The notes below the pieces were generated by a model. The model did not search any database, was not told the DNA's origin, and saw only the letters and a program-made list of their open reading frames with translations. Below are positions 28,140 to 46,998 of a DNA stretch of 64,000 bases, one piece after another (within the stretch, counting starts at the first letter, position 1; the number at the start of each line of letters is the position of its first letter). Source of the stretch: Planctomycetia bacterium. GTDB lineage: Bacteria; Planctomycetota; Planctomycetia; Pirellulales; Thermoguttaceae. Made by a program: the position numbers and the translations under genes. The stretch spans positions 1 through 64,000 of the forward strand of contig JAUNBJ010000006.1 of the NCBI GenBank assembly GCA_030535245.1, given 5' to 3'.

Positions 28140-29003
28140 TCAATACTCGTTCGCCCCATATTCCTGAGCCGGAGCCGCCTGCGTCGCCGGAGCTTTTTCC
28201 AGGCTGTCGTAGTATTCGTACAGGGACATCTCGCTCTTCTGGATTTCCTTGATGGAATCCACCGTCACGTCGTTGGACTTGGAACCGTCGCTGACCTGGA
28301 CGCTCTTGCTATTCCCCTGGAGAATCGGCTTGCCCGCGACTTTGATCTGGTTGCCGCGAACGTAGGTGATGTTGGAATCCGCCTTGATTCGACGGGCATC
28401 CAGCAGGGAGTTCACCGCATTTCCATCCACCGTCGTGATGATGTCGCCCGAACGAAGCCCCATCTTGAACAGGGGAGAGGTGGCAGGAACGGTCGCGTCA
28501 ATGACCGCACCCTTGGCAACCCGACCCGAGGAGGGGAGAAATTTCGTGACGACGCTCGCCGTCGCCGTGGCCGTTGCGTCGCCTGTGGACGCCACCGCCG
28601 TCGCGGAAGCCTGCGTCTGTGCCGGCTGCGTCGGAGTGACGACCTGCGTCTGCACCGTCTGCACCGGCTGAACCGTGACGACCGGGACGGAATAGGTCAC
28701 GATACGAAGCGGAACATAGTAAACCGGGCAGTACCACGTGTAGTAGTAATAGCACGGATAGTAATACCGCACGGGACGACGCCAGCACCAGAACCAACAC
28801 TTCGCAGCACCATCGTTGCCCTCGCTCGCCTCAAGCTCCTGAGCAAACTTCGCGTCACTCGAAGTGTCCATGGTTTCAAGGTTGGCGAACAGGCTCGCTT
28901 CCAAAGCGGCGACCTGCTCCGCGGTGACTTTCTCTTCTGCACTGCAAACACCAACGACCGCGGCGAAAACAACCGCTAAACTGAACACAGCAATACGTTT
29001 CAT
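28140..29003 (-). CDS. Secreted Tyr-rich PDZ protein 1
   Basis: The 287-residue protein starts MKRIAVFSLAVVFAAVVGVCSA (signal peptide). Residues ~70-105 are extremely rich in Tyr, Trp, Arg and Pro (WFWCWRRPVRYYYPCYYYYT). A Thr/Gln/Ala-rich linker follows, then a PDZ-like domain (~155-260) with SPLFKMGLRSGDIITTVDGNAV. It ends EYGANEY. A smaller paralogue at 33587-34183 shares the whole layout, the EYGA-EY tail and a spaced promoter block. PDZ domains bind C-terminal tails or internal strands, so it may dock onto the PDZ-caspase of the same cluster. It is the last gene of the minus-strand group. Confidence 0.75.
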   Translation of the reverse strand: MKRIAVFSLAVVFAAVVGVCSAEEKVTAEQVAALEASLFANLETMDTSSDAKFAQELEASEGNDGAAKCWFWCWRRPVRYYYPCYYYYTWYCPVYYVPLRIVTYSVPVVTVQPVQTVQTQVVTPTQPAQTQASATAVASTGDATATATASVVTKFLPSSGRVAKGAVIDATVPATSPLFKMGLRSGDIITTVDGNAVNSLLDARRIKADSNITYVRGNQIKVAGKPILQGNSKSVQVSDGSKSNDVTVDSIKEIQKSEMSLYEYYDSLEKAPATQAAPAQEYGANEY

Positions 29004-29069
29004 AGTGGATCTCCTTCATGATTGTGAAATGGATGAAATGGTGAAGTCTTCGGTTGACTTCTCTCCATG

Positions 29070-29102
29070 AACAATATGGTAAAACAAAAACAAATGTGAA
29101 AC
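29070..29102 (-). promoter_or_regulatory. Conserved promoter block of Tyr-rich PDZ gene 1
   Basis: Minus strand: GTTTCACA, 10 nt, then TTTTACCATATTGTT. The identical motif with identical spacing lies before the paralogue (34245-34277). TTTCAC and CATATT are 17 nt apart, compatible with -35/-10 boxes of a specific sigma factor. Confidence 0.6.
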
Positions 29103-29233: not shown

Positions 29234-30604
29234 CTACTGAATGGTTCCCCCAACGCCTGAAGTGTGAAAATTCAACGGCGCAGGGGTGCTTTTGGTGCCG
29301 TTTTCCTTTACTTCCGGTTTCTGGGTCTCTTTATCCGTCTGCGAAGGGGTTGCGGTCTCCAACTCCGGAAGCGACTCCATCTCTTTTTCCATTGCCTCCG
29401 GATCCACGAAGCGTCCCATAAAGAGAATTCCCCCCGTCTTTCTTTCCGCAATCACAAAAATAAAAGGTCGGTCTGCGTAAAACGTCGGATTTTCCTTCGG
29501 TATCATCGATTTCCAGATCATTTCCGCTGCCGCAGCCGATGCCGCTTCCGTCCCTTTTTCATCCACCTTCAGGTACGTCCCTTGCAGGATCGTGGAAACC
29601 ATCAACTCGTTGCCCTTGGAAATCAGCGAGAAATCTGCCGTCGTCTGGAAGGCGTCCTCCATGCCCATCTTTTTAAGAACCGGCACCGCCTGCGAATCCC
29701 CCTGGAACGTAAACCGCGGAATACGCACATCCACCGTAACCAGGCTTGCTTTCGCCAGGCAGTCACGAATCAACGAGGCGCCGACCCGTTTTTCCACCTC
29801 CGCGAAATTCTCCCCCTTTTGCGGCAGAAAAATTCCCATGAAAAATTCCCCGTCACGATACGGAAGCTCCAGCCACTGAAAATCTTCCCCCTTCCAATAA
29901 CGATACTTCCCTTCCCGCTGCATGATCGGGAAACGAACCTCTTTCCCTTCCAAACTGGTGAAATACCCCTTACGCGTGTCCCGCTTGTCAAACGCGTTCG
30001 CCCACTGGCCGCTGAAAGTCAGCGTATCGCACAGGAGCAATTCCGTGTTCTTGGGAAGACTCTGGAGTAACTGCGGAATTTTCCCCTGAGTTTGTCGGGA
30101 AATCCACCCGTTGATCTCCTTCCGGGTGGACTTGTTTCCAAAATCGATGTTCCGCACCTCCGCATTACCAAGCTCGCGTAAGACACCAACATAATTGCCA
30201 TCCAGCGGAAACCTGTTCTGTACCCATACGCTGTCCGCAATTTGCACCTCCGACCTGTTTTGGAATCGCAAAAACAAGTCACGCATCCCTTGAAAATACG
30301 CTTCCTCGCTTCCGGTCCAACCCATGGCCGCCGCGATCTGCGCGTGCGTTTTATTCTGGCTTCCGGCATAAAGCATCCCCAGGAGCCGATACATCCCAAG
30401 CGGCGACGTAACCCAATTTGCTTTCGGTTGCTCCGCCACATTTTTCTGATACCAATCCCAGGAAAAGGCTGTAAACGATTCCTCGAAGCTCACATTTTCC
30501 GGTTGCGACAGAGCTGGAGGAACAGGAGCGTCCTGGCCCCAAACCCCGTTTGAAAATCCCCAAAGCAACAGCGGCATCAGCAAAAACAAACGTGACTTTT
30601 TCAT
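29234..30604 (-). CDS. Secreted serpin with Lys-Ser reactive site
   Basis: Serpins are suicide inhibitors that trap serine or some cysteine proteases. The 456-residue protein has a signal peptide (MKKSRLFLLMPLLLWGFSNG) and a complete fold: WVTSPLGMYRLLGMLYAGS, LLLCDTLTFSGQWANAF, and the C-terminal FYADRPFIFVIAERKTGGILFMGR. The hinge GTEAASAAAAE (351-361) has small residues as needed for loop insertion, so it should be inhibitory. Aligning with alpha-1-antitrypsin puts P1-P1' at Lys365-Ser366. A ~50-residue Thr/Glu/Pro-rich tail follows the fold. It lies 12 nt behind the PDZ-caspase gene, with AAGGAG overlapping that gene's stop region, so the two are almost surely co-expressed. Confidence 0.92.
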   Translation of the reverse strand: MKKSRLFLLMPLLLWGFSNGVWGQDAPVPPALSQPENVSFEESFTAFSWDWYQKNVAEQPKANWVTSPLGMYRLLGMLYAGSQNKTHAQIAAAMGWTGSEEAYFQGMRDLFLRFQNRSEVQIADSVWVQNRFPLDGNYVGVLRELGNAEVRNIDFGNKSTRKEINGWISRQTQGKIPQLLQSLPKNTELLLCDTLTFSGQWANAFDKRDTRKGYFTSLEGKEVRFPIMQREGKYRYWKGEDFQWLELPYRDGEFFMGIFLPQKGENFAEVEKRVGASLIRDCLAKASLVTVDVRIPRFTFQGDSQAVPVLKKMGMEDAFQTTADFSLISKGNELMVSTILQGTYLKVDEKGTEAASAAAAEMIWKSMIPKENPTFYADRPFIFVIAERKTGGILFMGRFVDPEAMEKEMESLPELETATPSQTDKETQKPEVKENGTKSTPAPLNFHTSGVGGTIQ

Positions 30605-30616
30605 GATATAAACTCC

Positions 30617-32428
30617 TTATTTGTTCAACTGAACCACGATACTTTCTTCTTTATTCGTGCGATGGTCACGAATCACCAACTGTGCATTCTTCCCAGACGC
30701 ATCCACCGCTCGCGAAAAGTCGCTTCCGTTGTGGATTGTTGCACCGTTAAACTGGAGGATTTGATCCTGCACCTCAATTCCGATATTCGCGGCGGGCGAG
30801 TTCGGAATAACCGCCACGACACGATTCCCATCCGCCTGAATCGAAACACCAAAGACCGGCACCGTTGATGGCGTTGACGGCGCAGGCGGCGTCGTGGGTT
30901 GCGTGGCGGGCGGAGCGACCTGGTTGCCACCGGTCGTTTGCGTCGTTTGCGTTGCCTGTACCGTCGGTGGGGTTCCCTCGGCAGGTTTGTTCAAAAGCAG
31001 GCTCATCGTGGTAATCGACGAATCCCCCTTCTTCAAAATCATCAACGTCGCGGCCCGTGGGGAAGCGTCCACCGCCCTCTCAAAGTCCGCTCCGGTGCGA
31101 ATCGCCTGACCGTTCATCTGCAAAATTTGATCTCCAATTCCCAAACCCGCAGCCGATGCCGGTGAGTTCGGAAGAACATTGACGATGGTATTCCCCTGAA
31201 TCGAAACGCCAAAAATTGGGCCGTTGTTCACCGGGGCTGCGTTCGCTTCCGTATTTTGATTTTGCGGATTTGAATTCCCGTAAACCGAAGGATCCAGCGA
31301 CGCGGAACCGCCGTTCCCCCCACCCGTTCGAGAAGCTGCCGACACGGTGGACGGAACTTCTCTCGGTTCTCCATTCAATTCCGCTTCGACCTTCATCTCC
31401 TGATCGTTTCTCTTGAATGTGATCGTACATTTCGTCGGGGACGAATCAATCGCGATCGCGTACTCCCGCTCGTCGAGAACTTCCTGACCATTTACGAACG
31501 TGATGACGTCTCTTACGCGTAATCCCGCTTTTTCTCCGGGGAATCCCGGCACCACTTCCTCAATGCGCACATTGCCGACGCTTTGCGTCAACACGGAAAT
31601 TCCCAAACGCGGGATTCCCGGATACGCATAAACATGAGGAACCTGGGATCGCTGATTTTGCGGTGGTGCTCCCTTCGGGTATTTCTCCTTGAAAAGAACC
31701 GACGATTTTTCCGTCAGATCATTTGCAACGTCCTGCCACGTAATCTTTACGCCATTGACGGCGTCGTTATTCATTTTCTCAAACGACATGACCATCGCAA
31801 CCGTAAAAATGGAACCATCCTTCAACGCGTAAGAATACTGCCCAACTTTGGAGGAGGTTATATCCACCACCCCCTTGCAGTTGAAAAACAACTCTTGTAT
31901 CGCGGGGGTCGGCACCTTGACGCTTCCACGCGTTGGGGCAAGTTTAAAGCCCATTTTGGCATTTTCATCGAACACATTGCAGCAGTCGGTGAGAAGCACC
32001 ACGAGCCGACAATCTTTCTCTTGCATGATGTATTTAACATCAACGCGTTTCATGCTGGTCGCTTCCCCTTTTTCATCGCGAAGCTGGAAAAACTGCCCGC
32101 CGTTGGTGGAGTCGTTCGCCGCATGGCCGCTGTAGTAAAAAACGATCACATCGTCCGGTTGCGTGTTTAAGTTCCGAATGGTTTGTGCAATCGCGTTGGG
32201 CGTCGTCATCTCTCCATCCACGTTACGGAGGTTCAGCTGATGTGCGGGAACGGATTTTTGGAACATAGAAGTCACGTTCTGAATATCCCGAATGATCCCC
32301 TGCCGTGCTTCACCACGAAACCCACGTAAATCCCCCACCGTTACCAGGTGCAGCGTTTGCGCATAAAGGCTCAACGACATTCCCAGCGCCAACATCAGGC
32401 AAAGCGTTCCTTTGAGGAAAATTTTCAT
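30617..32428 (-). CDS. Secreted caspase-like protease with three PDZ domains
   Basis: The 603-residue protein starts MKIFLKGTLCLMLALGMSLS (signal peptide to about residue 23). Residues 25-250 form a peptidase C14 (caspase/metacaspase) p20-like domain: catalytic His102 in VFYYSGHAAND and catalytic Cys150 in LLTDCCNVF. Three PDZ domains follow at about 270-352, 405-480 and 525-602 (repeated NSPA...G...DQILQ.NG), joined by Ser/Asn- and Thr/Pro-rich linkers. The usual His-Ser-Gly after Cys (CHSG) is replaced by NVF. PDZ domains should recruit substrates or regulate as in HtrA. The serpin follows directly; the DUF4384-like gene is upstream on the same strand. Confidence 0.88.
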   Translation of the reverse strand: MKIFLKGTLCLMLALGMSLSLYAQTLHLVTVGDLRGFRGEARQGIIRDIQNVTSMFQKSVPAHQLNLRNVDGEMTTPNAIAQTIRNLNTQPDDVIVFYYSGHAANDSTNGGQFFQLRDEKGEATSMKRVDVKYIMQEKDCRLVVLLTDCCNVFDENAKMGFKLAPTRGSVKVPTPAIQELFFNCKGVVDITSSKVGQYSYALKDGSIFTVAMVMSFEKMNNDAVNGVKITWQDVANDLTEKSSVLFKEKYPKGAPPQNQRSQVPHVYAYPGIPRLGISVLTQSVGNVRIEEVVPGFPGEKAGLRVRDVITFVNGQEVLDEREYAIAIDSSPTKCTITFKRNDQEMKVEAELNGEPREVPSTVSAASRTGGGNGGSASLDPSVYGNSNPQNQNTEANAAPVNNGPIFGVSIQGNTIVNVLPNSPASAAGLGIGDQILQMNGQAIRTGADFERAVDASPRAATLMILKKGDSSITTMSLLLNKPAEGTPPTVQATQTTQTTGGNQVAPPATQPTTPPAPSTPSTVPVFGVSIQADGNRVVAVIPNSPAANIGIEVQDQILQFNGATIHNGSDFSRAVDASGKNAQLVIRDHRTNKEESIVVQLNK

Positions 32429-32463: not shown

Positions 32464-32490
32464 GAAGAAGCGGCTCCTCACCGCTTCTTT
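32464..32490 (-). terminator. Hairpin between DUF4384-like and PDZ-caspase genes
   Basis: GAAGAAGCGG and CCGCTTCTTT pair with a 7-nt loop just after the DUF4384-like stop, followed on the minus strand by a pyrimidine-rich tract. It may be a partial terminator that allows some read-through into the caspase-serpin pair. Confidence 0.5.
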
Positions 32491-32504: not shown

Positions 32505-33485
32505 TTATTTTTTAATCGTCAGCTGCCACTGGCCAACATTCCCCGCTCCAAACATGTAGAAGCAAACATCGTTCGGCTGGCTTGAGGTGGCCACTTCCGA
32601 ACCGACAATCTGGAACTTCACGCTCTCGGAAGCCGCATTCACAGCGTTGGCGATATTTTCCGCTTCCTTCTTGCTGATTCCTTCGATGGTTTTCTGCACT
32701 TCGTCGGCCGTCGCCTTTTCTTTGGTCACGGCGGAGTCATTGATGCTTTTCATCGTGCCCACACCGCGGGTCGTCACCTGAGCGCTGACCTGCGTCGTGC
32801 CGTTATTGTTCACCACGCTGGCGGTCGCCTGAGCCGTCAAACCATTCTGAATACCTTCCCAGTCGGCACGCACCACCACCATCGACATTACTTCGTCACG
32901 CATATCGTCGTCCATCTCGAAAAGGACGGGAAGTTTCGTCGTCTGGCCGGGCTGAAGTGCTTTGAAGCTGTCCGGGTATTTGGCGTTGGGGTAAATCTGA
33001 CGCGAAGTCGGGCGGCTGTCCGGGTAATTCTGGAACAGCGCGACGTACACCGGAACGGCGGTCTGGACGTGAACGTAAAATCGTTCTTTCGGTTTCCATT
33101 CTTTTTTGGTCGGGTTGACGATCGTGCCATCCGCAAGCTCAAACCAGACTTTGATTCCGAGTTTGCTCGGTGTCGTGGCGGTCGTGGTCTGCGTGCTGGT
33201 GGTCGTCTGTCCGGTTCCGTTGGTGGTGGTCGTCGTCACGGTCGTTTGCGAGGGGGCATTCACTTCGGCAATCTGGAACTTCACATCAAGCACGCCTTTT
33301 GTCCCCTCCTCCTTCACCTTCTGAACTCCGTTCAACGCATTGATGGCGTTGCTGGTAAGCTGGGAGAAAGCCTGTTCCGAGGCCGAACGAATCATCCCCG
33401 TATCTTCTTCCGCCGCAGAGACTCCGCAAATGCTGGAGGTCAGAAGCAGCGCGACAATACCCAATTCTCTGAATAAACGTTTCAT
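32505..33485 (-). CDS. Secreted DUF4384-like protein
   Basis: The start at 33485 (MKRLFRELGIVALLLTSSICGVSAAEE) gives a signal peptide and 326 residues. Residues ~130-225 (ELADGTIVNPTKKEWKPKER, FYVHVQTAVPVYVALFQNYP, RQIYPNAKYPDS and ALQPGQTTKLP) match the DUF4384 pattern, a beta-sandwich often found fused or adjacent to bacterial caspases. A Thr-rich linker (TTTTTNGTGQTTTSTQTTT) separates an N-terminal helical segment. The upstream leader holds TTGACA without a good -10 box. The context fits a companion of the caspase next door; its action is unknown. Confidence 0.72.
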   Translation of the reverse strand: MKRLFRELGIVALLLTSSICGVSAAEEDTGMIRSASEQAFSQLTSNAINALNGVQKVKEEGTKGVLDVKFQIAEVNAPSQTTVTTTTTNGTGQTTTSTQTTTATTPSKLGIKVWFELADGTIVNPTKKEWKPKERFYVHVQTAVPVYVALFQNYPDSRPTSRQIYPNAKYPDSFKALQPGQTTKLPVLFEMDDDMRDEVMSMVVVRADWEGIQNGLTAQATASVVNNNGTTQVSAQVTTRGVGTMKSINDSAVTKEKATADEVQKTIEGISKKEAENIANAVNAASESVKFQIVGSEVATSSQPNDVCFYMFGAGNVGQWQLTIKK

Positions 33486-33536
33486 GATAGTGTTCCTTTC
33501 GATTCTGAAGTTTCGTATCCTATATAATTTCAATGT

Positions 33537-33572
33537 CAAAAACCGGGGAGAGCAACCATGGTCACTCTCCCC
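33537..33572 (-). terminator. Intrinsic terminator of Tyr-rich PDZ gene 2
   Basis: On the minus strand GGGGAGAG and CTCTCCCC form an 8-bp stem with a 12-nt loop, followed by a T-run (the complement of CAAAAACC at 33538-33543). It lies just behind the stop at 33587. Confidence 0.75.
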
Positions 33573-33586
33573 AGACCTCCCTGTTT

Positions 33587-34183
33587 TTAGTATTCCAAAG
33601 CGCCGTATTCGTATTCGACTTCCGGCGCCTGAGGTGCCGTTGCACCGACGGGATTCGTACCGCCGTTGACCTTCAAAATGACCAGCTTGGAATCCGCGGC
33701 AATCGTGTCAATCTGAGCGGGGTCGGTAATTTTCTGTCCATTGATGTGCGTAATGACATCCCCTTTCACGACTCCATGGGCGGCAAGCGGCGTACCTGCC
33801 AGGGGAGCCTCCTCGATCAGAACGCCGGTATCGTTCGTTGCCGATTTGACGTCCGCACTCTTGTAAAAAGTGATGTACCGATACGTGTAACGATAATAGT
33901 ATGTCCGATACCATCGGTAGTACACCGGGCGATAGTAGTAGTACACCGGGCGATAGTAGTAGTACCCGCACCAACGATAACGGAAGAAGCATTTCACGCC
34001 ATCCTCGCTTTCGTTACCCTCGCTGACCGGCGTCGCGTCCGGGGCGATGGGGGCGGCGGGGGCTTCCGCCTGCTCCATGGGAACGGTGCCGGTATAATCG
34101 TTTTCACCATACTCGGCCGCGTTCAAATTCCCCACCACAAATCCTGCAACGACACAACCCACCAAAACAAACATCTTTTTCAT
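33587..34183 (-). CDS. Secreted Tyr-rich PDZ protein 2
   Basis: The 198-residue paralogue of the protein at 28140-29003 has a signal peptide MKKMFVLVGCVVAGFVVGNLNA, an acidic stretch, a Tyr/Arg-rich block (YYYYRPVYYYYRPVYYRWYR, residues ~74-105) and a PDZ-like half ending GVVKGDVITHINGQKI. The C-terminus is YEYGALEY, matching EYGANEY of protein 1. The Thr/Gln linker of protein 1 is missing. It carries its own promoter block and terminator. Tyr-rich secreted regions can be cross-linked or bind aromatic/glycan surfaces; that is only a possibility. Confidence 0.75.
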   Translation of the reverse strand: MKKMFVLVGCVVAGFVVGNLNAAEYGENDYTGTVPMEQAEAPAAPIAPDATPVSEGNESEDGVKCFFRYRWCGYYYYRPVYYYYRPVYYRWYRTYYYRYTYRYITFYKSADVKSATNDTGVLIEEAPLAGTPLAAHGVVKGDVITHINGQKITDPAQIDTIAADSKLVILKVNGGTNPVGATAPQAPEVEYEYGALEY

Positions 34184-34244: not shown

Positions 34245-34277
34245 AACAATATGGTAAAAGATCGCCTTTTGTGAAAC
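34245..34277 (-). promoter_or_regulatory. Conserved promoter block of Tyr-rich PDZ gene 2
   Basis: Minus strand: GTTTCACA, 10 nt, TTTTACCATATTGTT, exactly as before gene 1 (29070-29102). The intervening 10 nt differ, so the block is conserved by selection rather than by recent duplication of the whole leader. Confidence 0.65.
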
Positions 34278-34418: not shown

Positions 34419-36830
34419 TTAGAATCTCCACTGCAAACCGGCCGTGATGTTCTGCGTCATGGCATGGCTATACATAACCGCGTTGTAATCCGCACTCAAC
34501 GAGAGCGTTTTCGCATAGTTCAGGTAACGGTACATACCAAGACCGAGGTTCAGAGAATCGCGTCCCATGGCGTTTCCGGTAATGTCCCAACCCCTTTTGA
34601 AGTTCTCATTCCAGAGGTGAACCGTCGCGGCGTCCTCATCTCCGAGCTGACGTCCGTAGAAGATACGTGCCGTCATGCCGAACATCTGGCTAAGGTCGGT
34701 GCAATGTCCCGACAAACCGATACGAAGCGTTTCCCGATGATAATGGATGTCGTCGTAACTAAATCGCTGCGTGGAGAGAATCATATAGTTGTTCTGAACA
34801 TCGTTACCTTCTTCCGAGAACCCATCAATCCAGCTATGCTCAATATCCAACCCGAACGTCGGGCTGAGGGAAAGGAACTCGGTGAACTGGAGACGTTTGA
34901 CCAGATAGAAGGTCGCGGTAAACGTATTTCCCGAAGTATCGCTGGTGTACAACTCATTGACATTCGGCAAAAACACCCTCCGTTCCCAATCCAGGGACTG
35001 CGCACCACCACCAACGAATACCGACAATTCCCAATTCCGTGCCAACATCTTTTCAAAGTGGAGGGCGAATTGAAAATCATCCATATCGATATTCGAAGCG
35101 TAGCCCCCGTCTCGATTCTCGCTGAAGCCTTCGTAAATTCCGCTCTGGGAGAGTTCGGGGGAGGAATAGGCGAACAGGATACCGCCGGAGAACGTATCGC
35201 TCAACTGGCGTCGCAGACCAGTCAGGAAACCGGTTCGTCGCACATCGTAACCGTCATAATGGATTCCACCTTCATCATACGCGGAGCCGTTGATGGAGGT
35301 ATGGGAGAAGCTCGCCCAGGCAGTCCACTTGTTGCTCGGATAGGACTGAGACGAAGAAGAAGTCGTCTCTTTCGCCGCCGTTCCCGGATCGCTCGGCTTC
35401 GCTTCCGGTGCATTCTCTTCCTGCCCACGGGTTGTCGTTCCGCTCATGGAGGTCAAGCCGCCTCCAAAGAACGTACTGGTCGGATTCCCCATATGCCCCG
35501 CCATCATCGTCACGTTCTCAATACCACTACCACGCGCAAGGTTGTGGATGGTTTGCTTGACATCTTTAGCACTCGCATTGAAGAGAGCGTCATTAAATGG
35601 AGAGAACATGTTATTGGCAGCAGCATCTTGACGAAGGTCATCAATCGTCTGAGCATATTCCTGCTCTTCGGCAGACATGTTCTGATTTTGTGCAAATGTT
35701 GCGACATCCCAAACGGTTGAAACAATCTGGAAACCATCTGTCGTCGTCGCGGCTTTTGCATTCACCAAACCAGTACTGAAAATACCGTTCAAAAGGTCGA
35801 TACTATCCTTGTTATTCTCGGTCACCTGCACCTCATCGTCAGTTCCATATCCTGTATCGATGGAAATATCGCTGGCATTCAAATTGAATGTTAATTGAGT
35901 GCCTTCGTCTAAGGTTGAAACATGATCATACCAAACCGAAGTATCTTTCGCAATTGTAATCGATTGGGCATTGATAGTACCTAATGTACGATTGGTACTA
36001 AAGTCGAATATTTCTTTGCCTGCCCCGTCAACACCAGACACTCGGTCAACACTCAGCCACAAACGGGCACCACCGCCAAATCTAGCATCAGCGTCTGCTG
36101 TGTCATCTGAGAGATATGCTCCAAAATTCACTTCTTTTGCATTCACAATAGGAGCGATATCATTCGTGGCCGAAAATGTATGCGCCGCCATGAAAGCAAG
36201 TTGTCCTAAGGATAAAACTTCATATCTTGCAATGTTCTTTTTTGTGGAAGGATCGCTATATTCTGCTTTCAAGACCTCGCGATAAATGTTAAACGTTCCG
36301 TCACTTGTATTTCCATATACCCCTTCTGTTACATTCGTAGTAGCCAATACCATAGCACCCTTATAAAGCTGAGTATCTCCATTAAATTCGCTTTGATTTC
36401 CGGTAAAAATTATATTATACGCATTTGCTTCTCTAGGTGCTGACGCAGAAACGTCACCGCTCTGCTGAATAGAAACAACCCCATCGCTTTTCAATTTTCC
36501 CATAAAAATATGTGATCCACGTATAGAAGCTCTAATGTTATCATAGGTAACATCATAATCAATCGCTGTAGGGTCTCCATTCTCATCTTTGGTAACAAAC
36601 ATGTAATTGCTCTCATACCAACTCCCGTCTCCAGCATCAAAACTTCCTAGATTTTGATCATCCAAGACATCTACCTTGTAGAGCTTCCCATCCGTAAATA
36701 CTACCTGGGAATTCGTATGAATCGTAATTTCGGAATCTGTGACAATCAATGGGTTCACAATCAAAAGAGATCTATCCGTAGATGAATTTTCACTTCCTAC
36801 CGTGACTTTTCCACCTGCCTCTCCACCCAA
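34419..36830 (-). CDS. Autotransporter with C-terminal beta-barrel, 5'-truncated
   Basis: The C-terminal ~270 residues form an autotransporter beta-barrel domain (WTAWASFSHTSINGSAYDEG onward, ending ITAGLQWRF with the terminal Phe of outer-membrane proteins). The passenger is beta-strand rich with no catalytic motif recognised. No signal peptide or credible start exists: the frame continues upstream of 36830 (LEITNSSRVLWTGDNLGLGG) to a TAG at 36897-36899, where a perfect 14-bp palindrome sits. The N-terminal passenger DNA is visibly more AT-rich than the barrel part. I infer loss of the 5' end by recombination, so the gene is probably silent or a recombination donor. Confidence 0.72.
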   Translation of the reverse strand: MGGEAGGKVTVGSENSSTDRSLLIVNPLIVTDSEITIHTNSQVVFTDGKLYKVDVLDDQNLGSFDAGDGSWYESNYMFVTKDENGDPTAIDYDVTYDNIRASIRGSHIFMGKLKSDGVVSIQQSGDVSASAPREANAYNIIFTGNQSEFNGDTQLYKGAMVLATTNVTEGVYGNTSDGTFNIYREVLKAEYSDPSTKKNIARYEVLSLGQLAFMAAHTFSATNDIAPIVNAKEVNFGAYLSDDTADADARFGGGARLWLSVDRVSGVDGAGKEIFDFSTNRTLGTINAQSITIAKDTSVWYDHVSTLDEGTQLTFNLNASDISIDTGYGTDDEVQVTENNKDSIDLLNGIFSTGLVNAKAATTTDGFQIVSTVWDVATFAQNQNMSAEEQEYAQTIDDLRQDAAANNMFSPFNDALFNASAKDVKQTIHNLARGSGIENVTMMAGHMGNPTSTFFGGGLTSMSGTTTRGQEENAPEAKPSDPGTAAKETTSSSSQSYPSNKWTAWASFSHTSINGSAYDEGGIHYDGYDVRRTGFLTGLRRQLSDTFSGGILFAYSSPELSQSGIYEGFSENRDGGYASNIDMDDFQFALHFEKMLARNWELSVFVGGGAQSLDWERRVFLPNVNELYTSDTSGNTFTATFYLVKRLQFTEFLSLSPTFGLDIEHSWIDGFSEEGNDVQNNYMILSTQRFSYDDIHYHRETLRIGLSGHCTDLSQMFGMTARIFYGRQLGDEDAATVHLWNENFKRGWDITGNAMGRDSLNLGLGMYRYLNYAKTLSLSADYNAVMYSHAMTQNITAGLQWRF

Positions 36831-37026: not shown

Positions 37027-37494
37027 CCACCCACATTTCCTCGGAAACGGGACAGGCAAAGGTGGTGTGGGCGAGCCGTGGACGGAGCAAAGCGCAGTCC
37101 CGGAGTACGGAAAAGTATCCACCTATTTCTCCGGAAAAACGGACTGCGTCCTCCGTTCACGGCCCCCTACACCCATTGGATTCCACCCACATTTCCCCGG
37201 AAACAAGACAGGCAAAGGTGGTGTGGGCGAGCCGTGGACGGAGCAAAGCGCAGTCCCGGAGTACGGAAAAGTATCCACCTATTTCTCCGGAAAAACGGAC
37301 TGCGTCCTCCGTTCACGGCCCCCTACACCCATTGGATTCCACCCACATTTCCCCGGAAACAAGACAGGCAAAGGTGGTGTGGGCGAGCCGTGGACGGAGC
37401 AAAGCGCAGTCCCGGAGTACGGAAAAGTATCCACCTATTTCTCCGGAAAAACGGACTGCGTCCTCCGTTCACGGCCCCCTACACCCATTAGAAT
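37027..37494 (+). repeat. Three 156-bp tandem repeats
   Basis: Unit starts (CCACCCACATTTCC) fall at 37027, 37183 and 37339, a constant 156-bp period, and the copies are nearly identical. Each unit contains a long imperfect dyad: GTGGACGGAG..GCGCAGTCC..CGGAG against CTCCGG..GGACTGCGTCCTCCGTTCAC. All three plus frames stay open because the period is a multiple of three, but there is no ribosome site or signal peptide, so I do not call a protein. It ends 34 nt before the promoter of the first plus-strand caspase. Confidence 0.9.
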
Positions 37495-37528
37495 TGTACC
37501 CAAAATTTTCTTTGAAAAATCCAAAGAC

Positions 37529-37556
37529 TTGACTTTTTTCGTCAGAAATGTATAAT
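37529..37556 (+). promoter_or_regulatory. Promoter of the first plus-strand caspase
   Basis: TTGACT (37529-37534) and TATAAT (37551-37556) with a 16-nt spacer. The start codon is 64 nt downstream of the -10 box. Confidence 0.75.
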
Positions 37557-37620
37557 GGTTAACATTCCTGTTTCGAGTGACATTCAAAAATTCCGAACGC
37601 GTGAATCAGAAAAATCGATT

Positions 37621-39638: not shown

Positions 39639-39835
39639 GGGTGCGATCAAACTTCCTTGCGAATTTGGACAAGATGGGTGATTCCCCTCTTTTCAGAGGG
39701 GTGGCAGCCGTAGGCTGACGGGGTGTTTTGAACTTGGGAAAGCGTTCCCCACTTCGGAACTACCCCCCGCCCTGACGGGCGTACCCCTTCAAAGAAGGGG
39801 AATTTGTACGGCGCGCAGAAAATTGGATCGCACCC
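39639..39835. mobile_element. MITE-like element, copy B, with 9-bp target duplication
   Basis: Ends GGGTGCGATC and GATCGCACCC enclose 197 bp matching copies A and C in inverted orientation, including the cccctcttttcagaggggt and ccccttcaaagaaggggaa hairpins. The flanks show an exact direct repeat GTTGGCAGG (39630-39638 and 39836-39844), strong evidence for a transposition event that split the caspase cluster. Confidence 0.85.
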
Positions 39836-39863
39836 GTTGGCAGGAAAATGCCCTGGGAGCGTC

Positions 39864-39892
39864 TTGACATTTTTCATACACCCATGTATAAC
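39864..39892 (+). promoter_or_regulatory. Promoter of the pseudo-caspase/sigma/kinase operon
   Basis: TTGACA (39864-39869), 17-nt spacer, TATAAC (39887-39892). It lies just to the right of MITE copy B and outside it. Confidence 0.75.
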
Positions 39893-39968
39893 AGTAGTAT
39901 TCACAAAAATCAGAACCGAGGTGTTCGCAGAAACCACTTCGGTTTTGAAAAAATCAAGGAGATGCCAC

Positions 39969-40979
39969 GTGAGTAAAATCCTTTTTTGTAGCGTTTTCAT
40001 AGCGTTCTGCGTCGGGGCGTCGGGGGCGGAAACGTCACAGGGAGGGCCAGGTTCCGAAATACCAGGTGCCAAACGGTTCGCCATTATTTTTGACACGACC
40101 ACTCCGCCGGCAAACCAGCAAAACGAGTACGAAACCGCAATCCAAACGTTGGCCGATTGCCTGAAAGCGTCGGGGATTCCAGAGAAAAACATCCATGTTT
40201 ATTCCTCCTTTTCCACCCCCGCCACCCGAAAAAAAATGCAAAGCGCCCTGCGTCGCAAATCGTGGAAAAGCAATCCGCCGGAAGAACTCCAGGTTTACAT
40301 TACCGCAAACGGTCTGAGTAACGGCACGAAAGATATGCTGGTTCCTTCGGGCGTTTCGGTGGAAGATGTTCAGGAAACGGGGGATTCGCGTTTGATTGCG
40401 TTTGAGGAGATTCAAAAGATGATTGCCAACAGCGGCGCAACGCGTATCCTGCTTGTGATGAATTTCCAGTCGGTCAAGGCCGTGACGCGTTCGTCAGGGG
40501 CAGGTTCCAAACTCCAGAACGTACGGATTCAGGGGTATCGCGGCCTCCGTTCCAACGAGTATTTCGACGACGAGGAATCAGAAACGGAAAACGCAGAGGA
40601 CAATCCGAAAAAAAATTTCCAGTTCCTGCAAATTGTAACCCGCGACCAGGATATTCGTGGCACCCGAATCAGTGATTTTTATCAGACGTTTCGCGGTGCC
40701 ATGGAAGGATACGCCGACATTTCGGGGAATAACGACGGGAAGATTCAGGCGGAAGAATTAGCGCACTACCTCCGAGACAATACGGAAATGACGGTTGAGA
40801 TTTCCCGTAACGGCAACGCGGAGTACCTTTTATGCGAAGCGAAGAAAAAAGCACAGATTCCCGCAGAAATTTTTGAGAGCTTGCAACGCACCTTTACACG
40901 CGAAGAATTCCGGCAGGAACGGGACTCTGCGGCACAGCGTGCAACCGTCATTCGGAACGCAAAGGGGGGGAATCCATGA
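39969..40979 (+). CDS. Secreted pseudo-caspase lacking catalytic His and Cys
   Basis: A GTG start at 39969 with AAGGAG 7 nt upstream gives 336 residues beginning (V/M)SKILFCSVFIAFCVGASGA, a signal peptide. The fold follows the neighbouring caspases: RFAIIFDTTTPP first strand, LQVYITANGLSNG where VYFSGHG is expected, ATRILLVMNFQSV where LFILDACHSG is expected, and GYADISGNNDGKIQAEELAHYL, which clearly aligns with GYADSDLSGSVDTEELANYV of the first caspase. The His and Cys positions are both replaced (apparently Asn114 and Asn165), so it should be inactive, perhaps a decoy, scaffold or allosteric partner. Its stop overlaps the next start (ATGA). Confidence 0.8.
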   Translation: MSKILFCSVFIAFCVGASGAETSQGGPGSEIPGAKRFAIIFDTTTPPANQQNEYETAIQTLADCLKASGIPEKNIHVYSSFSTPATRKKMQSALRRKSWKSNPPEELQVYITANGLSNGTKDMLVPSGVSVEDVQETGDSRLIAFEEIQKMIANSGATRILLVMNFQSVKAVTRSSGAGSKLQNVRIQGYRGLRSNEYFDDEESETENAEDNPKKNFQFLQIVTRDQDIRGTRISDFYQTFRGAMEGYADISGNNDGKIQAEELAHYLRDNTEMTVEISRNGNAEYLLCEAKKKAQIPAEIFESLQRTFTREEFRQERDSAAQRATVIRNAKGGNP

Positions 40980-42541
40980 AAACGTTAGGATTTTGGAGCG
41001 TTTGGATTTTCGTGCTGTTCGGAACTTTCGTCGAACTTGCGGCGGATTGGAATTCCGACTTTTATCACGGGGTCGTTCGTCCTGCCACCTCGCTTCCGCC
41101 CAGTTCGTCGCGAAGCACAGGGTATCCTCACGTACCCTCCAGCCAAAAAAGAGTGACACGGGCGATTTTGTTTGCCGTGAACGAATACGACGGAAAAATG
41201 GACTCCCTTTCCGGCTGTATCAACGATATAGAGCGTGTTCGAGAATGGCTCCAGCAAACTCACGATATTCATCCGGAACATCTGGAGATCCTCACGGATC
41301 GCAGTGCGACGTACGCGAATCTGGATGCGGCGTTAAAGCGGGCGGCTCAGGTTCCTTCGGATCGCCTGGTGGTTGTGATTGCGTGTCATGGCGGTTCGGC
41401 CCATGGTAAAAGTTTCATCTGTCCGCAAGATATGTTGAACGTTGATTTCTCCGACACGGCGGGGGACGATGTGCTGGCCACGATTCGGGAACGGCGTCTT
41501 TTCCCACTTTCCGACATACTGGCGGCCCTGAAAGCGCTTCCGACGCGTGAAATTCTTTTGATTCTGGACTCCTGCCGCAAGGTGGAAGCGGGGAGTAACG
41601 ATTTCATGCAGGAATTTCAGGAGCTGATGCACAACGATAACCAATACTTCCAAAAAGTGGGGGGAAGTTTTGCGGTCGTCACCAGCTGCTCCTTTGGCCA
41701 GCAGGCGGAGGAATACTCCAGCGCGAACAAAGACTACGGTAAATTTCTCTACTTTTTTACGGAGGGGCTTACCGGGAAGGCAGATTTTACGGGGTGCTAC
41801 GACAACAGCGTGACCCTGACGGAAGCGTACAACTATGCGTACGCGCAGATGGAAGGTTCCCAAACGCCTGAAATTTTCATGGCCTCCTCCAGCGGGAATA
41901 TGGTTCTCGCAAATTATGCGGATCTTCCACGTCCCACGGACGTTTCCCAGGAGAGCGACCTTGCGTTTCTTTTGCGTACGGGGGTTATCCTCTCCAACGT
42001 AAAGCGGTGGAATGAAAAGACGAATCGGGAAGGACTGAAGGCGCTCGACTGCGTTTTGGAAAATGTACCGAACAACGCGTTGGCATGTTCCGTTCGGGGA
42101 AGCGTCCATCGTCGTCTTGGAAATTACGAGCAGACGATGCTTGACTGGAGCAAAGTCGGGCACAAGCTCCAACTTTACGCAGGCGTGGGCGAGACCGGAT
42201 CCCTGAGCGAGATTCCGTTCTACACTTCCCCCGACACGGCAGCCAAATCCTCATCGGGCCAACTGAAAACGAACGACCTTTTGACGGTTTCAGGAATTCG
42301 AGGCGATTTCCTTCTGATTTCCGAAGTGAACAATGCGCCTGTCACCGCAAGTTGGGTCAAGCGCAGCGACGTACACTGGAATTATAAAACGGCCTCGGAA
42401 AGAACCACGGCAACGCAGAATCAGCGTTCGCGTGATTACTCCGCCTCATACGGTAATGCGACACCGATGGAACGCATGACGATGAGAACTCAACCTTCAC
42501 GTGGCGGTGGAGAAAGCGGCCCCATTGCGCGTGGTCCATGA
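40976..42541 (+). CDS. Secreted caspase-like protease (third caspase gene)
   Basis: The start overlaps the pseudo-caspase stop by 4 nt (ATGA), implying translational coupling. The N-terminus MKTLGFWSVWIFVLFGTFVE is a signal sequence or anchor. The C14 domain spans ~60-320: AILFAVNEYDGKMDSLSGCIND, catalytic His138 in VVVIACHGGSAHG, catalytic Cys200 in LLILDSCRKVE. The C-terminal ~190 residues hold a short TPR-like part (LACSVRGSVHRRLGNYEQTM) and an SH3-like module (LKTNDLLTVSGIRGDFLLIS). With the pseudo-caspase it may form an active/inactive pair. The sigma factor gene follows 58 nt later. Confidence 0.87.
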   Translation: MKTLGFWSVWIFVLFGTFVELAADWNSDFYHGVVRPATSLPPSSSRSTGYPHVPSSQKRVTRAILFAVNEYDGKMDSLSGCINDIERVREWLQQTHDIHPEHLEILTDRSATYANLDAALKRAAQVPSDRLVVVIACHGGSAHGKSFICPQDMLNVDFSDTAGDDVLATIRERRLFPLSDILAALKALPTREILLILDSCRKVEAGSNDFMQEFQELMHNDNQYFQKVGGSFAVVTSCSFGQQAEEYSSANKDYGKFLYFFTEGLTGKADFTGCYDNSVTLTEAYNYAYAQMEGSQTPEIFMASSSGNMVLANYADLPRPTDVSQESDLAFLLRTGVILSNVKRWNEKTNREGLKALDCVLENVPNNALACSVRGSVHRRLGNYEQTMLDWSKVGHKLQLYAGVGETGSLSEIPFYTSPDTAAKSSSGQLKTNDLLTVSGIRGDFLLISEVNNAPVTASWVKRSDVHWNYKTASERTTATQNQRSRDYSASYGNATPMERMTMRTQPSRGGGESGPIARGP

Positions 42542-42599
42542 CGTTATTGAAATTCAAGACATACTCCTCGAATTGAATGAATTAAGGTGGAAAAATACG

Positions 42600-43535
42600 A
42601 TGCAGCAAAGTGTCCTCATGAGTCGTTGGATTTCCAAACTTGGCGATGGAAATCCGGACGCGATGGAACTGGTGTTCCGGCGTTATTTTGAAAAATTGAT
42701 TTCCCTGGCCTCATACCGAATGAAAGGGATCAATCGGGCGGAATGTTCCGGCGAGGATGTGGCGTTAAGTGCGATAAACAGCTTCTACAACACCCTTCAG
42801 CGTGGAAATATCCAACTGAATACGGAAGACGACCTTTGGGGATGTCTTTTTTGCATTATGATACGAAAGATTTCCGCACAACGACGTCGGGAATTTGCCC
42901 AGAGGCGTGGGGGTGGAAAAGTTGCAAAAATCAGCGGCGACACGGCTTTCGAGGAGGAGGGGGAGGCGATTTTTGCATCCATTGCAGGCAGCGAGCCGTC
43001 GCCGGAGCTTGCGGGCCAGTTGACGGAAACCACGGACGAACTTTTGAATCTTTTCGATAAAGATTCGACGCAATATAAAATCATTTCGATGAAGTTGCAG
43101 GGGTTTTCCGTCGCAGAAATTGCCGAGGAGCTGAATCTGTTGCCACGTACCATTTTTTGGCACCTGGATACCATTCGGAAGAACTGGGATTATTGGAACG
43201 GCATCGAATACCTGATTGAAAACAGCCTGGAGGGAGCCTCTTTTGCACACATGGCGACGTTTTTGGAAAAGACGCCGGAGATACTGGACGAGATTCTGGA
43301 GAAAATCCTGTTTCTCTGGAAAAAGGAGGCTTCCGAAGAAAAATGTCAGTCGCTTCGGCTGCTTTGGCACAACCGGGAGGCTTTTCAATCACTTTTGAAT
43401 CAGCAGGATTCCGCCGCACTGGAATTGGAGTCGCAACGGGGCAAGATTTTCAAACGGTGGCTTTCCCTGGCCCGTTCGGAATGGAAAAATGAACTGCTGA
43501 AAATCTGGACAAGAAAAAAGACCGCTTCGCCATGA
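42600..43535 (+). CDS. ECF-type RNA polymerase sigma factor with C-terminal extension
   Basis: The start at 42600 (MQQSVLMSRWISKLGDGNPD) has AAGGTGG 9 nt upstream; 311 residues. Region 2 (about 25-105) reads RRYFEKLISLASYRMKGINR...GEDVALSAINSFYNTLQRGN...DDLWGCLFCIMIRKISAQRR, typical of planctomycete ECF factors. Region 4 is YKIISMKLQGFSVAEIAEEL.LLPRTIFWHLDTIRKNW (about 160-200). About 110 extra residues follow, unlike minimal ECF factors, and could take signals. It is coupled by a 4-nt overlap to a Ser/Thr kinase; kinase-linked ECF groups are known to be activated by phosphorylation. No anti-sigma gene is visible. Confidence 0.88.
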   Translation: MQQSVLMSRWISKLGDGNPDAMELVFRRYFEKLISLASYRMKGINRAECSGEDVALSAINSFYNTLQRGNIQLNTEDDLWGCLFCIMIRKISAQRRREFAQRRGGGKVAKISGDTAFEEEGEAIFASIAGSEPSPELAGQLTETTDELLNLFDKDSTQYKIISMKLQGFSVAEIAEELNLLPRTIFWHLDTIRKNWDYWNGIEYLIENSLEGASFAHMATFLEKTPEILDEILEKILFLWKKEASEEKCQSLRLLWHNREAFQSLLNQQDSAALELESQRGKIFKRWLSLARSEWKNELLKIWTRKKTASP

Positions 43536-46150
43536 ATTCAAACGTCCTACAGAGGAATGGGGACTCCGAAAAACAGGAAGGTTCCAACCCTATTGAGTCG
43601 CAGGCGAACGCGATGGCGTTTTCCTCTTACTCAAGGCTGGCGGACATTAGTCTGTACTTTGAAAAAACCTGGACGGAGGAGCGGGTTTTATCCATTGAGG
43701 ATTGCCTTCGCATGGTTGGCGAGGAGGATCGCGAGGAGCTTTTTTCGCTGCTGCTTGAAATTGACGTCACCAAGGGATTTTTGGCCCGTGCGTTCGTCTC
43801 TATCGAGGAATATCAGACGCGATTTCCGCAGTGGAAGGAAATTGTCGACGTCGTTTTTTCGCAGTTCAACCAGCAGACGATTACCGGATACGGGCGTGTG
43901 GGGAAAAAAATCGGGCACTATTCGATTCAGGAAGTGCTTGGCAAAGGGGCGATGGGGATTGTTTTTCGGGCCACCGACGAGCACCTGCTTCGCACGGTTG
44001 CCATCAAGTATATTTTGCCGCTGAAGAATAAAACGCCGGAAAATCAGAAAAAACTGGTGGATCTTTTCCGCAATGAAGTCGCCATGCTGGGGCAGATGAA
44101 ACGCGACACGATGTTCGTTCAGGCCTATGAAAGCGACTGGGACGGCGATTTCATGTACCTGGTCATGGAATATGTTGACGGAAAGGATTTGGCAAAGTAC
44201 GTCCGACAAGAGGGGGGGAAACTCCCCTTCCCCGAAGCGGTGCGATACATCCGTCAAATTGCCGAGGGGCTGTGTGAAATCCATGATTTGGGAATCATCC
44301 ATCGGGACATTAAACCGGAAAACGTCGTACGATGCCAGGATGGTTCCATTCGCATTTTGGATTTGGGACTGGGCATTTTCAAGGATACGCATTCGGCATC
44401 GCGAATCCTGGAGCAGGTCCATCCTTCTAAAAAAGCGTTGGATCCCTCGACGCTGGTATTGATGGACAGCACCCAGGCCACTGCCGCCGGAACGCCCGCG
44501 TATTGGTCGCCGGAGGCGTATTACACTCCGGAAAGTGTGGACGCCCGAAGCGATCTGTTCAGTTTGGGGGGAACCTTTTTTTTCCTCTTAACGGGGCTTT
44601 TGCCGATTCAGTGGAGGAATCCCATTGAAAAGGCGGGGGAAAAGGAGCCTGTTTCTTTAAAGCAATTTCTGGAAACGCAAAAAATAGATCTTCCCGCCGA
44701 GGGGTTGGCCATTCTGGAGAAACTTCTGGAATTGGACGTGTCCCTTCGTTTTACTTCCGCGCACCAGCTACTGGAAGCGTTACAAAAGTTGGAAGAAAAA
44801 ATAACGCCGCGTCCCTGGTACGTTCGGTGGAAACGTTTCCTTCAGGGGGGAATGTTGCTGGTCGTCGTGGCCCTTTCTCTTTTGCTGTTTCACCTTTATT
44901 CGGGGGGGGCGAAATCGTTGGAATTGTCGGAATCGCAGATTGTCCAGACGAAATTCCAGACCGCGCAGCAGCTGGAAAAATCGGGGCAATCGAGTGCCGC
45001 GTTGGCATTGCTGATGGATTTATCCCCCGACTCCTTTGCCGATTCCGAAAAGGAAGCGTTCCTGGCTCTCCGTGGCGGGCTTTGCAAAGATCAATGGGAA
45101 AACCGGGAATACCTGCTGCGTGCCCAGAACGATTATTCCCAGTTAATTCAAATGAAGCCGGAGAATTTGAGTTATCACAAGGATTTGATTCGTCTGTATC
45201 TCGAACTTGGTGAGGAAGCACGGGCACGCGACGCGGTCATTCAAATTCAAAAACGTTACCCCAGGGAAGTGGTGTTTGCAATCCTGGACGCGGAAATTCA
45301 CATAACGGAAGCAGAAAACAAACATCTTTCCGAACCGGAAAAACATGCTCATTTGTCCGAGGCAATGGATATTTTAACCGACGTTCTGGGGCAGGACGCT
45401 TCCTTGTGGCAGGCTTATTTCTGGCGTGCCAGGGCCTACTACGCGATGCACCATATCGATTTCGCGCTGCGGGACCTGGAAGAACTTATGAAGCTGAACC
45501 GAAACATCCCTTCCGCCTGGCTTCTTTGGGCCGATCTTTACGTCGCGAAGAAAGATTATCCGGAGGCGCTGGAATGCTGGGATTACATCACACAACGGAA
45601 ACCCAATTTCACCAGTGCGGAATGGGCGGAGATTTTTCTAAAAAAGGCGCAGACGCTGTTTTTCCTTGAAAAATATGAAGAATGCATCGCGGCATGTTCC
45701 CGCAGTGAAAAAGAAGCGAAAGTTGCGTCGGCACAACTCCTGCAACTTCGGGCGGAATCTGCGTTTTACGCTTGCCGTTGGGAGATCGCGGCCGACGATT
45801 TCGAGAATTTATTCCTGGGGTATTCGCGTCAGCTTTTTTCCTCGAATCAGCAGATCATGTACGATACCATGCACGCCTTGTCCCTGTTTCAACTGGGTGA
45901 AAACGCGAAAAAGGTCGATTTGCGGAAAAAATACCTCAACGATTGTATTTCGGTCGTCGAGTCGAGCCAGAAACGCTTTTCCAATTCGGTAAAATTCTTC
46001 TTTTTCGAGAAGTATTGGAGTATGCGGGAAATTTACCTTCGGGCGAACATCCTTTTGGGAAACCAGGAGGTGGTACGCGAACATTCCGAATCCCTTTTCA
46101 AAACGATGCAGGAGACGGAGGCGCCTGCGTCCAACGCGACGCTGGAATAA
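43532..46150 (+). CDS. Transmembrane Ser/Thr protein kinase with TPRs
   Basis: The 872-residue protein overlaps the sigma gene stop by 4 nt. An N-terminal planctomycete-type extension (RFPQWKEIVDVVF, ~97-109) precedes the Hanks kinase domain (~130-420): loop GKGAMG, Lys159 in VAIKY, HRDIKPEN (257-264), DLG at 277 in place of DFG, and TPAYWSPEA. One membrane helix (~439-456) leads to ~410 residues of TPR-like helices that should lie in the periplasm, where the caspases are secreted. This suggests sensing outside and phosphorylating inside, with the sigma factor as the obvious candidate substrate. Confidence 0.92.
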   Translation: MNSNVLQRNGDSEKQEGSNPIESQANAMAFSSYSRLADISLYFEKTWTEERVLSIEDCLRMVGEEDREELFSLLLEIDVTKGFLARAFVSIEEYQTRFPQWKEIVDVVFSQFNQQTITGYGRVGKKIGHYSIQEVLGKGAMGIVFRATDEHLLRTVAIKYILPLKNKTPENQKKLVDLFRNEVAMLGQMKRDTMFVQAYESDWDGDFMYLVMEYVDGKDLAKYVRQEGGKLPFPEAVRYIRQIAEGLCEIHDLGIIHRDIKPENVVRCQDGSIRILDLGLGIFKDTHSASRILEQVHPSKKALDPSTLVLMDSTQATAAGTPAYWSPEAYYTPESVDARSDLFSLGGTFFFLLTGLLPIQWRNPIEKAGEKEPVSLKQFLETQKIDLPAEGLAILEKLLELDVSLRFTSAHQLLEALQKLEEKITPRPWYVRWKRFLQGGMLLVVVALSLLLFHLYSGGAKSLELSESQIVQTKFQTAQQLEKSGQSSAALALLMDLSPDSFADSEKEAFLALRGGLCKDQWENREYLLRAQNDYSQLIQMKPENLSYHKDLIRLYLELGEEARARDAVIQIQKRYPREVVFAILDAEIHITEAENKHLSEPEKHAHLSEAMDILTDVLGQDASLWQAYFWRARAYYAMHHIDFALRDLEELMKLNRNIPSAWLLWADLYVAKKDYPEALECWDYITQRKPNFTSAEWAEIFLKKAQTLFFLEKYEECIAACSRSEKEAKVASAQLLQLRAESAFYACRWEIAADDFENLFLGYSRQLFSSNQQIMYDTMHALSLFQLGENAKKVDLRKKYLNDCISVVESSQKRFSNSVKFFFFEKYWSMREIYLRANILLGNQEVVREHSESLFKTMQETEAPASNATLE

Positions 46151-46173
46151 TGCGGGAGTAAGGAGAACCTGTT

Positions 46174-46998
46174 TTGAAAAACCATTCCTTTGTAGCGACC
46201 GGGACACGGCTTGCGTTTCTCGGTTTTCTCCTCTGGGGAAAATGGTTGGCGGCAAGCGAAGTGGAGTGGAATCCTGAGGTACGGGAGGTGGGCGTTTTTC
46301 TGTGCCATGCCACCTTTTCGTGGGATATGGCAAAGGAACAGCTTCAGATACTGGCAAATTTGCAGCGCGATATTCAACAGAAACTGGGGCTTGGGGATCC
46401 CAGGGAAAAGGTGGAGGTTTTCCTTTTTTCGTCGCAGGAAACCTGGGCAAGGTACCATCGTCAATACCTTCCCGACACCCCCTTTCGCAGGGCGATGTTT
46501 CGGAAACCAGACGTTATTCTCAAAACAAAAAGCAGCCGGGGGAAGATTTACGCGTACCTTTCTCCCCAGCTCGAACAGGATTTGCGTCATGAGGGAACGC
46601 ATGCCATCCTGCACGCGACGCTTGGAAAGCCGCTCCCGATTTGGATTGACGAGGGATTGGCGGAGTATTTTGAGGTTTCTCTCCCCCCCTGGCAAAACCC
46701 CACCTGGTTGGAGCAAACGCGGAGCCGGCTCCAAAAGCACCAAACCATTCCGCTCAAAAAATTGGAAAAAATTACGGGAATGCGGGACATGACGCGAGAG
46801 GCCTATGGTGATTCGTGGGCCTGGGTGGTCTTTCTTTTGGACGGGCCTCAACCGATACGGCATATCTTACCCGATTACCTTCGAGACGTTTCCAAAAAGC
46901 TCTTTTATCCTTCCCTTTCCTCCCGAATCACAAAGGTTTCCAAAACGCCGCACGAAACGCTCCTGCAACGTTACTTTTTAAGGGAAATGCCCGATTAA
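46174..46998 (+). CDS. Secreted HExxH metallopeptidase, DUF1570-like
   Basis: A TTG start at 46174, with AAGGAG 8 nt upstream, gives 274 residues and a signal sequence (TRLAFLGFLLWGKWLAAS). The zinc site HEGTHAILH (139-147) is followed by WIDEGLAEYFE (~157-167), in which a Glu serves as the third ligand of the gluzincin type. This layout is the DUF1570/peptidase-MA-like group common in planctomycetes. It is the last gene of the run, 23 nt after the kinase, and would be co-expressed with caspases, sigma factor and kinase. The substrate is unknown. Confidence 0.82.
   Translation: MKNHSFVATGTRLAFLGFLLWGKWLAASEVEWNPEVREVGVFLCHATFSWDMAKEQLQILANLQRDIQQKLGLGDPREKVEVFLFSSQETWARYHRQYLPDTPFRRAMFRKPDVILKTKSSRGKIYAYLSPQLEQDLRHEGTHAILHATLGKPLPIWIDEGLAEYFEVSLPPWQNPTWLEQTRSRLQKHQTIPLKKLEKITGMRDMTREAYGDSWAWVVFLLDGPQPIRHILPDYLRDVSKKLFYPSLSSRITKVSKTPHETLLQRYFLREMPD

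Follow-up and report, generated by a model that had tools for sequence, protein, structure and literature searches.

In staphopain-staphostatin operons, a protease gene is directly followed by an inhibitor gene. The locus described here, from a gut planctomycete of the Pirellulales whose kin are named Thermoguttaceae, likewise carries an inhibitor gene directly 3' of a protease gene, although this inhibitor has a serpin fold, the protease belongs to the caspase family, and both are predicted to be exported. Plant and algal serpins inhibit metacaspases, the described pairs being AtSerpin1 with AtMC9 and AtMC1 and CrSERPIN with CrMCA-I (PMC10609998). Our locus resembles these pairs in joining a serpin to a C14B-type peptidase of predicted basic P1 specificity, but it is bacterial, its products are predicted to be exported, its genes are adjacent and coupled, and PDZ domains occur on the protease and, in one case, on the serpin; inhibition within the bacterial pair is a prediction.

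Bacterial orthocaspases include pseudo-variants without the His-Cys dyad, and DUF4384 occurs with some of them (PMC6426788). Our locus shares the C14 p20 domain and the dyad-less variants and has a DUF4384-like gene, whereas the text of that paper mentions neither planctomycetes nor serpins, and its pseudo-forms are chiefly alphaproteobacterial and cyanobacterial. Caspase conflict systems feature EACC domains, TRADD-N, and ECF genes and have planctomycetes among their hosts (PMC8195603). They too place caspase genes near ECF sigma factors, but the proteins studied here carry predicted export signals, no serpin is mentioned for the conflict systems, and no EACC1-type model exceeded its cut-off, C14b scoring 93.3 bits against that for the EACC1-associated caspase (NCBIfam NF047832; cut-off, 140 bits). 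ECF sigma factors under Ser/Thr kinase control include EcfP (ECF43) and ECF59/60, the critical site of EcfP being uncharged (PMC8103513). As in those groups, the ECF gene of our locus overlaps the gene for a transmembrane Ser/Thr kinase, although the ECF factors of this gene cluster, unlike EcfP-type factors, mostly retain an acidic DAED site and have a long C-terminal extension.

The proteases that most bacterial serpins act on are not known, and little is known of what regulates caspase homologues in bacteria; the pair described here gives a testable case. Searches of the open-licence literature yielded no account of a caspase-serpin pair in bacteria or of a link between serpins and planctomycetes; a report elsewhere is possible.

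RESULTS

Gene content of the locus

The window, i.e., the whole 64,000-nucleotide stretch that was analyzed, is part of contig C38 in a genome bin (G000) of 3.97 Mb that has 12 C14 matches. An initial annotation had proposed an envelope system of caspases, a pseudo-caspase, a serpin, PDZ proteins, an ECF sigma factor, a kinase, and a metallopeptidase, and every one of these genes was recovered at the coordinates given there (Table 1). Three C14 proteins have the catalytic His and Cys, while the fourth homologue and its orthologues lack both; the ECF factor, the single transmembrane segment of the kinase (about residues 437 to 455) with TPRs C-terminal to it, and the HEGTH peptidase also held up. 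The gene labeled DUF4384 exists, but its assignment is weak (18.9 bits against PF14326; cut-off, 27 bits), and we refer to it only as DUF4384-like. The proteins described as secreted have predicted exported N-termini, as judged by eye and from hydropathy only. The earlier gene list, although right, omitted an autotransporter ORF and a tandem repeat (156 bp, three copies), and it gave no special weight to the most telling link, the close pairing of C14 and serpin genes whose P1 specificities match.

Table 1. Features of the locus, with positions in the window
Feature	Positions	Strand	Remarks
PDZa: predicted exported, Tyr/Trp-rich segment, C-terminal PDZ	28140..29003	-	orthologue 61% identical in G002; also G005, G007
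Promoter-like element GTTTCACA-N10-TTTTACCATATTGTT upstream of PDZa	29070..29102	-	identical to element upstream of PDZb
Serpin: predicted exported, inhibitory hinge GTEAASAAA, P1-P1' Lys-Ser	29234..30604	-	Pfam PF00079, E=3e-97
C14/PDZ: predicted exported caspase-like peptidase with three PDZ domains	30617..32428	-	SGHA/TDCC; H102, C150; S1 Asp48, Asp148
Terminator/attenuator-like hairpin between DUF4384-like and C14/PDZ	32465..32489	-	similar hairpins upstream of C14/PDZ in L061, L062
DUF4384-like protein, predicted exported, likely start 33485	32505..33539	-	sub-threshold Pfam
Terminator-like hairpin after PDZb	33543..33574	-	
PDZb: small, predicted exported, Tyr-rich PDZ protein	33587..34183	-	
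Promoter-like element preceding PDZb, identical to that of PDZa	34245..34277	-	
Autotransporter beta-domain ORF	34419..36830	-	PF03797, 5e-22
Intergenic tandem repeat before C14b, three 156-bp copies	37027..37489	+	
Sigma70-like promoter match TTGACT-16-TATAAT before C14b	37529..37556	+	
C14b: caspase-like peptidase (SGHG/DACHSG), predicted exported, start probably at 37621	37555..39606	+	
Sigma70-like promoter match CTTGACA-17-TATAA before pseudo-C14 gene	39863..39891	+	
psC14: conserved pseudo-caspase, likely start GTG 39969	39804..40979	+	both catalytic residues lost
C14c: predicted exported metacaspase-like peptidase, GCxND/ACHG/DSC	40976..42541	+	overlaps psC14 by 4 bp
ECF sigma factor (PF07638), C-terminal extension	42501..43535	+	homology places the start near 42600
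Ser/Thr kinase with a single TM segment and extracytoplasmic TPRs	43532..46150	+	overlaps ECF by 4 bp
HEGTH metallopeptidase-like protein, predicted exported	46174..46998	+	DUF2268/DUF1570-like, sub-threshold

The gene cluster is conserved through rearrangement

The initial annotation had named neighborhood conservation as one check on its proposal, and this check came out in its favor. The locus consists of two blocks, C14b-psC14-C14c-ECF-kinase-HExxH and PDZb-DUF4384-like-C14/PDZ-serpin-PDZa, which stay together in other genomes despite inversions, interruptions, and different chromosomal sites. Relatives' genomes, which come from ruminant (goat colon for G002) and termite guts (termite-gut Planctomycetaceae), keep the blocks in G002, G005, G007, G064, G066, and G093, with order and flanking genes varying. 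The G002 genome has both on one co-directional 23-kb stretch, in the transcriptional order C14b, psC14, C14c, ECF, kinase, HExxH, PDZb, DUF4384-like, three tandem C14/PDZ-serpin pairs, PDZa, all on one strand; the window keeps this order within the second block, which there has the reverse orientation and is found on the opposite flank of C14b. In G066 and G093, the order is ECF-kinase-PDZb-DUF4384-like-C14-serpin and then C14b-psC14-C14c, with intervening ORFs in G093, while G064 has psC14-C14c-ECF-autotransporter-HExxH-DUF4384-like-C14/PDZ-serpin-C14. The blocks of G005 are on separate contigs, both of which end nearby. Of the seven congeners, only G002 and G005 have ECF orthologues (48 to 50% identity); a first scan of genome contigs with the ECF factor as the query gave no match.

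The DUF4384-like gene is present in 19 of the 119 genomes of the family, in six genera, nearly always adjacent to a C14 gene and mostly to a serpin gene. This core (DUF4384-like-C14-serpin), often with a kinase or ECF gene nearby, extends across several genera and to the marine species Rhodopirellula sallentina, where an ECF gene and a gene for a WD40-bearing kinase are divergent from DUF4384-like-C14/PDZ-serpin. Some loci have the C14 gene without the serpin (G113 contig C96, G015). In a sample of 397 genomes of the order, a single one outside the family (G757, apparently R. sallentina) had the DUF4384-like gene, and horizontal transfer is therefore possible. The cluster is flanked by gyrA in the window, by gyrB in G124, and, as judged by eye from sequence, by genes resembling obg in G002 and mutL in G005, so the arrangement is not frozen synteny. 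The repeated joint occurrence of these families elsewhere makes the grouping more than chance, and the conservation of the neighborhood despite rearrangement and across genera supports well the idea of one functional system. The proposal of the initial annotation is thereby supported in part, its wiring from kinase to sigma factor being a putative step. Other C14 clusters of the window's own genome (C71, C135, and others) were considered as copies and rejected, being unlike the module; the one on C71 (L028) has three C14 genes and a gene for a 1449-aa protein.

One could instead regard only C14/PDZ-serpin-DUF4384-like as a unit, with ECF-kinase-C14b-psC14-C14c being separate and merely tending to lie nearby. 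In genera g9 and g10, the core does occur without its ECF-containing partner, a triad without the core is found on G083 and G075 contigs (which are short), and the strands of the window differ in their promoter-like sequences. Nevertheless, both blocks adjoin in G000, G002, G064, G066, and G093, in varying orders and at varying chromosomal sites, and both G113 and R. sallentina have ECF/kinase genes adjoining the core. We thus consider two separate units unlikely and favor a single module, which is real, conserved, and resistant to rearrangement and whose most informative part is the caspase-family protease with its matched serpin.

A caspase-family protease gene is coupled to the gene for a serpin with a basic P1 residue

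The serpin gene starts 12 bp after the stop codon of C14/PDZ; in relatives, the two genes are on the same strand and mostly separated by 10 to 110 bp or slightly overlapping, and the pair has been duplicated as a unit, as in the three copies of G002. C14/PDZ, C14b, and C14c all exceed the Pfam cut-off and have the His-Cys dyad of C14B peptidases together with an acidic S1 pocket, formed by an Asp two residues before the Cys and an Asp on helix 1. The 15 active C14/PDZ proteins compared all share D48, H102, D148, and C150; D84 and D198 are likewise invariant in C14c, which can be aligned with plant metacaspases across the GCxND motif. Active metacaspases have a strict preference for Arg or Lys at P1, and Asp95 and Asp211 of TbMCA2 line the proposed S1 pocket (PMC4357240). 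From these residues, C14/PDZ is predicted to cleave after Lys or Arg.

The serpin combines the PF00079 fold with a small-residue hinge at P15 to P9, as expected of an inhibitory serpin. Although linked serpins are only 26 to 47% identical to that of the window, reactive-loop alignment showed Lys at P1 and Ser, Ala, or Gly at P1' in nearly all of them. Within the family, P1 was basic (Lys/Arg) in 19 of 21 C14-linked serpins but in only 3 of 27 unlinked ones (Fisher P = 2.6e-8, relatedness not corrected for); the two exceptions have Met or Ile. Divergent linked serpins examined afterwards had Lys (G131 C377 and G113 C5) or Arg (G126 C148), and P1 was varied among other planctomycete serpins, which served as a control. 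In a serpin tree built with the loop columns left out, the linked serpins did not form one clade. Well-supported branches gave four independent contrasts, in which P1 agreed with linkage in 3.3 on average and disagreed in about none, too few for a sign test to reach significance; linkage and P1 share ancestry. Given the linkage, the basic P1, the S1 aspartates, and the known inhibition of metacaspases by serpins, it is reasonable to infer that the co-encoded serpin inhibits C14/PDZ.

Two further serpins differ in architecture or loop. The second serpin of the window's genome (G000:C162; L213:1-1233), located away from C14 genes, has a Gly-rich, non-basic reactive loop. In the R. sallentina serpin (L219:3-791), an inserted PDZ domain separates the N-terminal helices from the remainder of the serpin fold; this serpin is cut by the start of its contig, and the P1 comparison excludes it.

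The serpin might instead act as a shield against exogenous trypsin-like proteases of the host gut or of other microbes, its linkage to C14 reflecting a shared envelope-stress regulon. The gut origin of the source genomes fits this idea, gut bacterial serpins that act on host proteases are known (PMC5127057), a P1 Lys suits trypsin as well, and serpins occur widely across the phylum (in 116 of 392 genomes). Against these points stand the rarity of a basic P1 in the unlinked serpins of the same gut family, the presence of the same pair in a marine species, and the tight coupling of C14 and serpin genes down to their joint duplication. A shield is consequently improbable in our view, and we retain the co-encoded C14 peptidase as the putative target.

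Catalytically dead paralogues recur

psC14 gave no Pfam match. A profile comparison with C14c yielded 97.7%, and its predicted structure (mean pLDDT of 71.5, about 90 in the core) had the MALT1 paracaspase as its best PDB match, both of which indicate a caspase fold. Asn replaces His and Gln replaces Cys, and the dyad is absent from all seven orthologues compared; as modeled, psC14 is a pseudo-orthocaspase, i.e., a caspase fold without the dyad. The C14b dyad is lost in the G002 orthologue, and termite-gut genera carry, after the serpin, a second PDZ-bearing C14 homologue with a broken dyad. Together with psC14, these cases make catalytically dead paralogues a recurring element of the locus.

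An autotransporter gene adjoins the module in some genomes

The autotransporter ORF of the window has a beta-domain but no signal peptide, and it lacks roughly the first 500 residues of its G005 relative; longer relatives (1090 to 1348 aa) adjoin the module in G005, G007, G064, and G083. The near-perfect, non-coding tandem repeat separates it from C14b, and the ORF at 37067-37555 (162 aa) was discarded as a spurious product of the repeat.

Such a neighbor, found in five genomes, raises the idea of an antagonism cassette in which exported C14 peptidases and the autotransporter attack competitors and the serpin is a periplasmic immunity protein. The patchy distribution and the tandem protease-serpin copies are in line with this idea, but the conserved partners include pseudo-caspases, the ECF factor, and the kinase, none of the known markers of toxin delivery is present, and a search for known systems matched only generic caspase and kinase models. 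Antagonism therefore seems very unlikely, and regulated proteolysis remains the preferred reading. Anti-phage defense was rejected, as its matches were confined to the same generic models.

ECF-kinase pair and candidate regulatory elements

An ECF gene with an adjacent Ser/Thr kinase gene is found in the window (4-bp overlap), G002, G005, G066, G093, and G113, and the pair is part of the module in several genera and R. sallentina. Since psC14-C14c and ECF-kinase overlap by 4 bp each and HExxH follows the kinase by 23 bp, the plus-strand block is probably transcribed together. The hallmark of EcfP-type phosphorylation, the replacement of DAED by uncharged residues, is absent, as the retained acidic site reads SGED in the window and DGED in R. 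sallentina; E85 and D86 are invariant among the ECF factors compared. An EcfP-like phospho-switch is thus not supported, and the kinase, if it controls the ECF factor, may act elsewhere, for instance on the C-terminal extension.

Sigma70-like sequences precede C14b and psC14. The exact element GTTTCACA-N10-TTTTACCATATTGTT occurs before PDZa and PDZb and nowhere else in the window, making it a candidate for co-regulation of these two genes. When the regions upstream of cluster genes in four genomes were searched by nucleotide pairs for a common ECF promoter, nothing rose above shuffled sequences. Hairpins after PDZb, the DUF4384-like gene, and PDZa suggest stepped expression of the minus-strand block.

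The kinases vary in architecture. That of R. sallentina (L219:5814-10130) carries WD40 propellers in place of the TPRs seen in the window kinase, and the sensor part appears to have been swapped. The G002 kinase (L026:8145-11165) has a long tail of PEGKPEDKP-type repeats at its extracytoplasmic C terminus.

DISCUSSION

We consider it somewhat probable that the locus encodes one functional module for exported proteolytic control, in which orthocaspase (C14B-type) peptidases and a dedicated serpin stand under an ECF-kinase pair. In this module, C14/PDZ would cut after Lys or Arg and may be anchored by its PDZ domains to partners of the PDZ or DUF4384-like kind, while the serpin encoded just downstream would trap it by presenting Lys at P1 of its reactive loop. 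The pseudo-caspase(s) may serve as non-catalytic regulators or decoys of C14b and C14c. The membrane kinase would monitor the envelope machinery through its external TPRs and control the adjacent ECF sigma factor, possibly by phosphorylation, and the sigma factor would adjust expression of part of the module. More tentatively, we propose an envelope circuit in which co-encoded serpins control caspase-family proteases, pseudo-caspases regulate them, and the kinase-sigma pair reads their state.

The linked pair with its conserved P1 provides a testable target for one group of serpins and a candidate inhibitor for one group of orthocaspases. If the circuit is real, it would be the prokaryotic equivalent of the cascades of proteases and serpins found in animals and plants, and it may wire serpin-caspase control to transcription. 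Serpin control of caspase-family proteases, so far a matter of plants and algae, would then also operate in bacteria; our findings suggest that some bacteria control their caspase relatives by serpins much as plants do.
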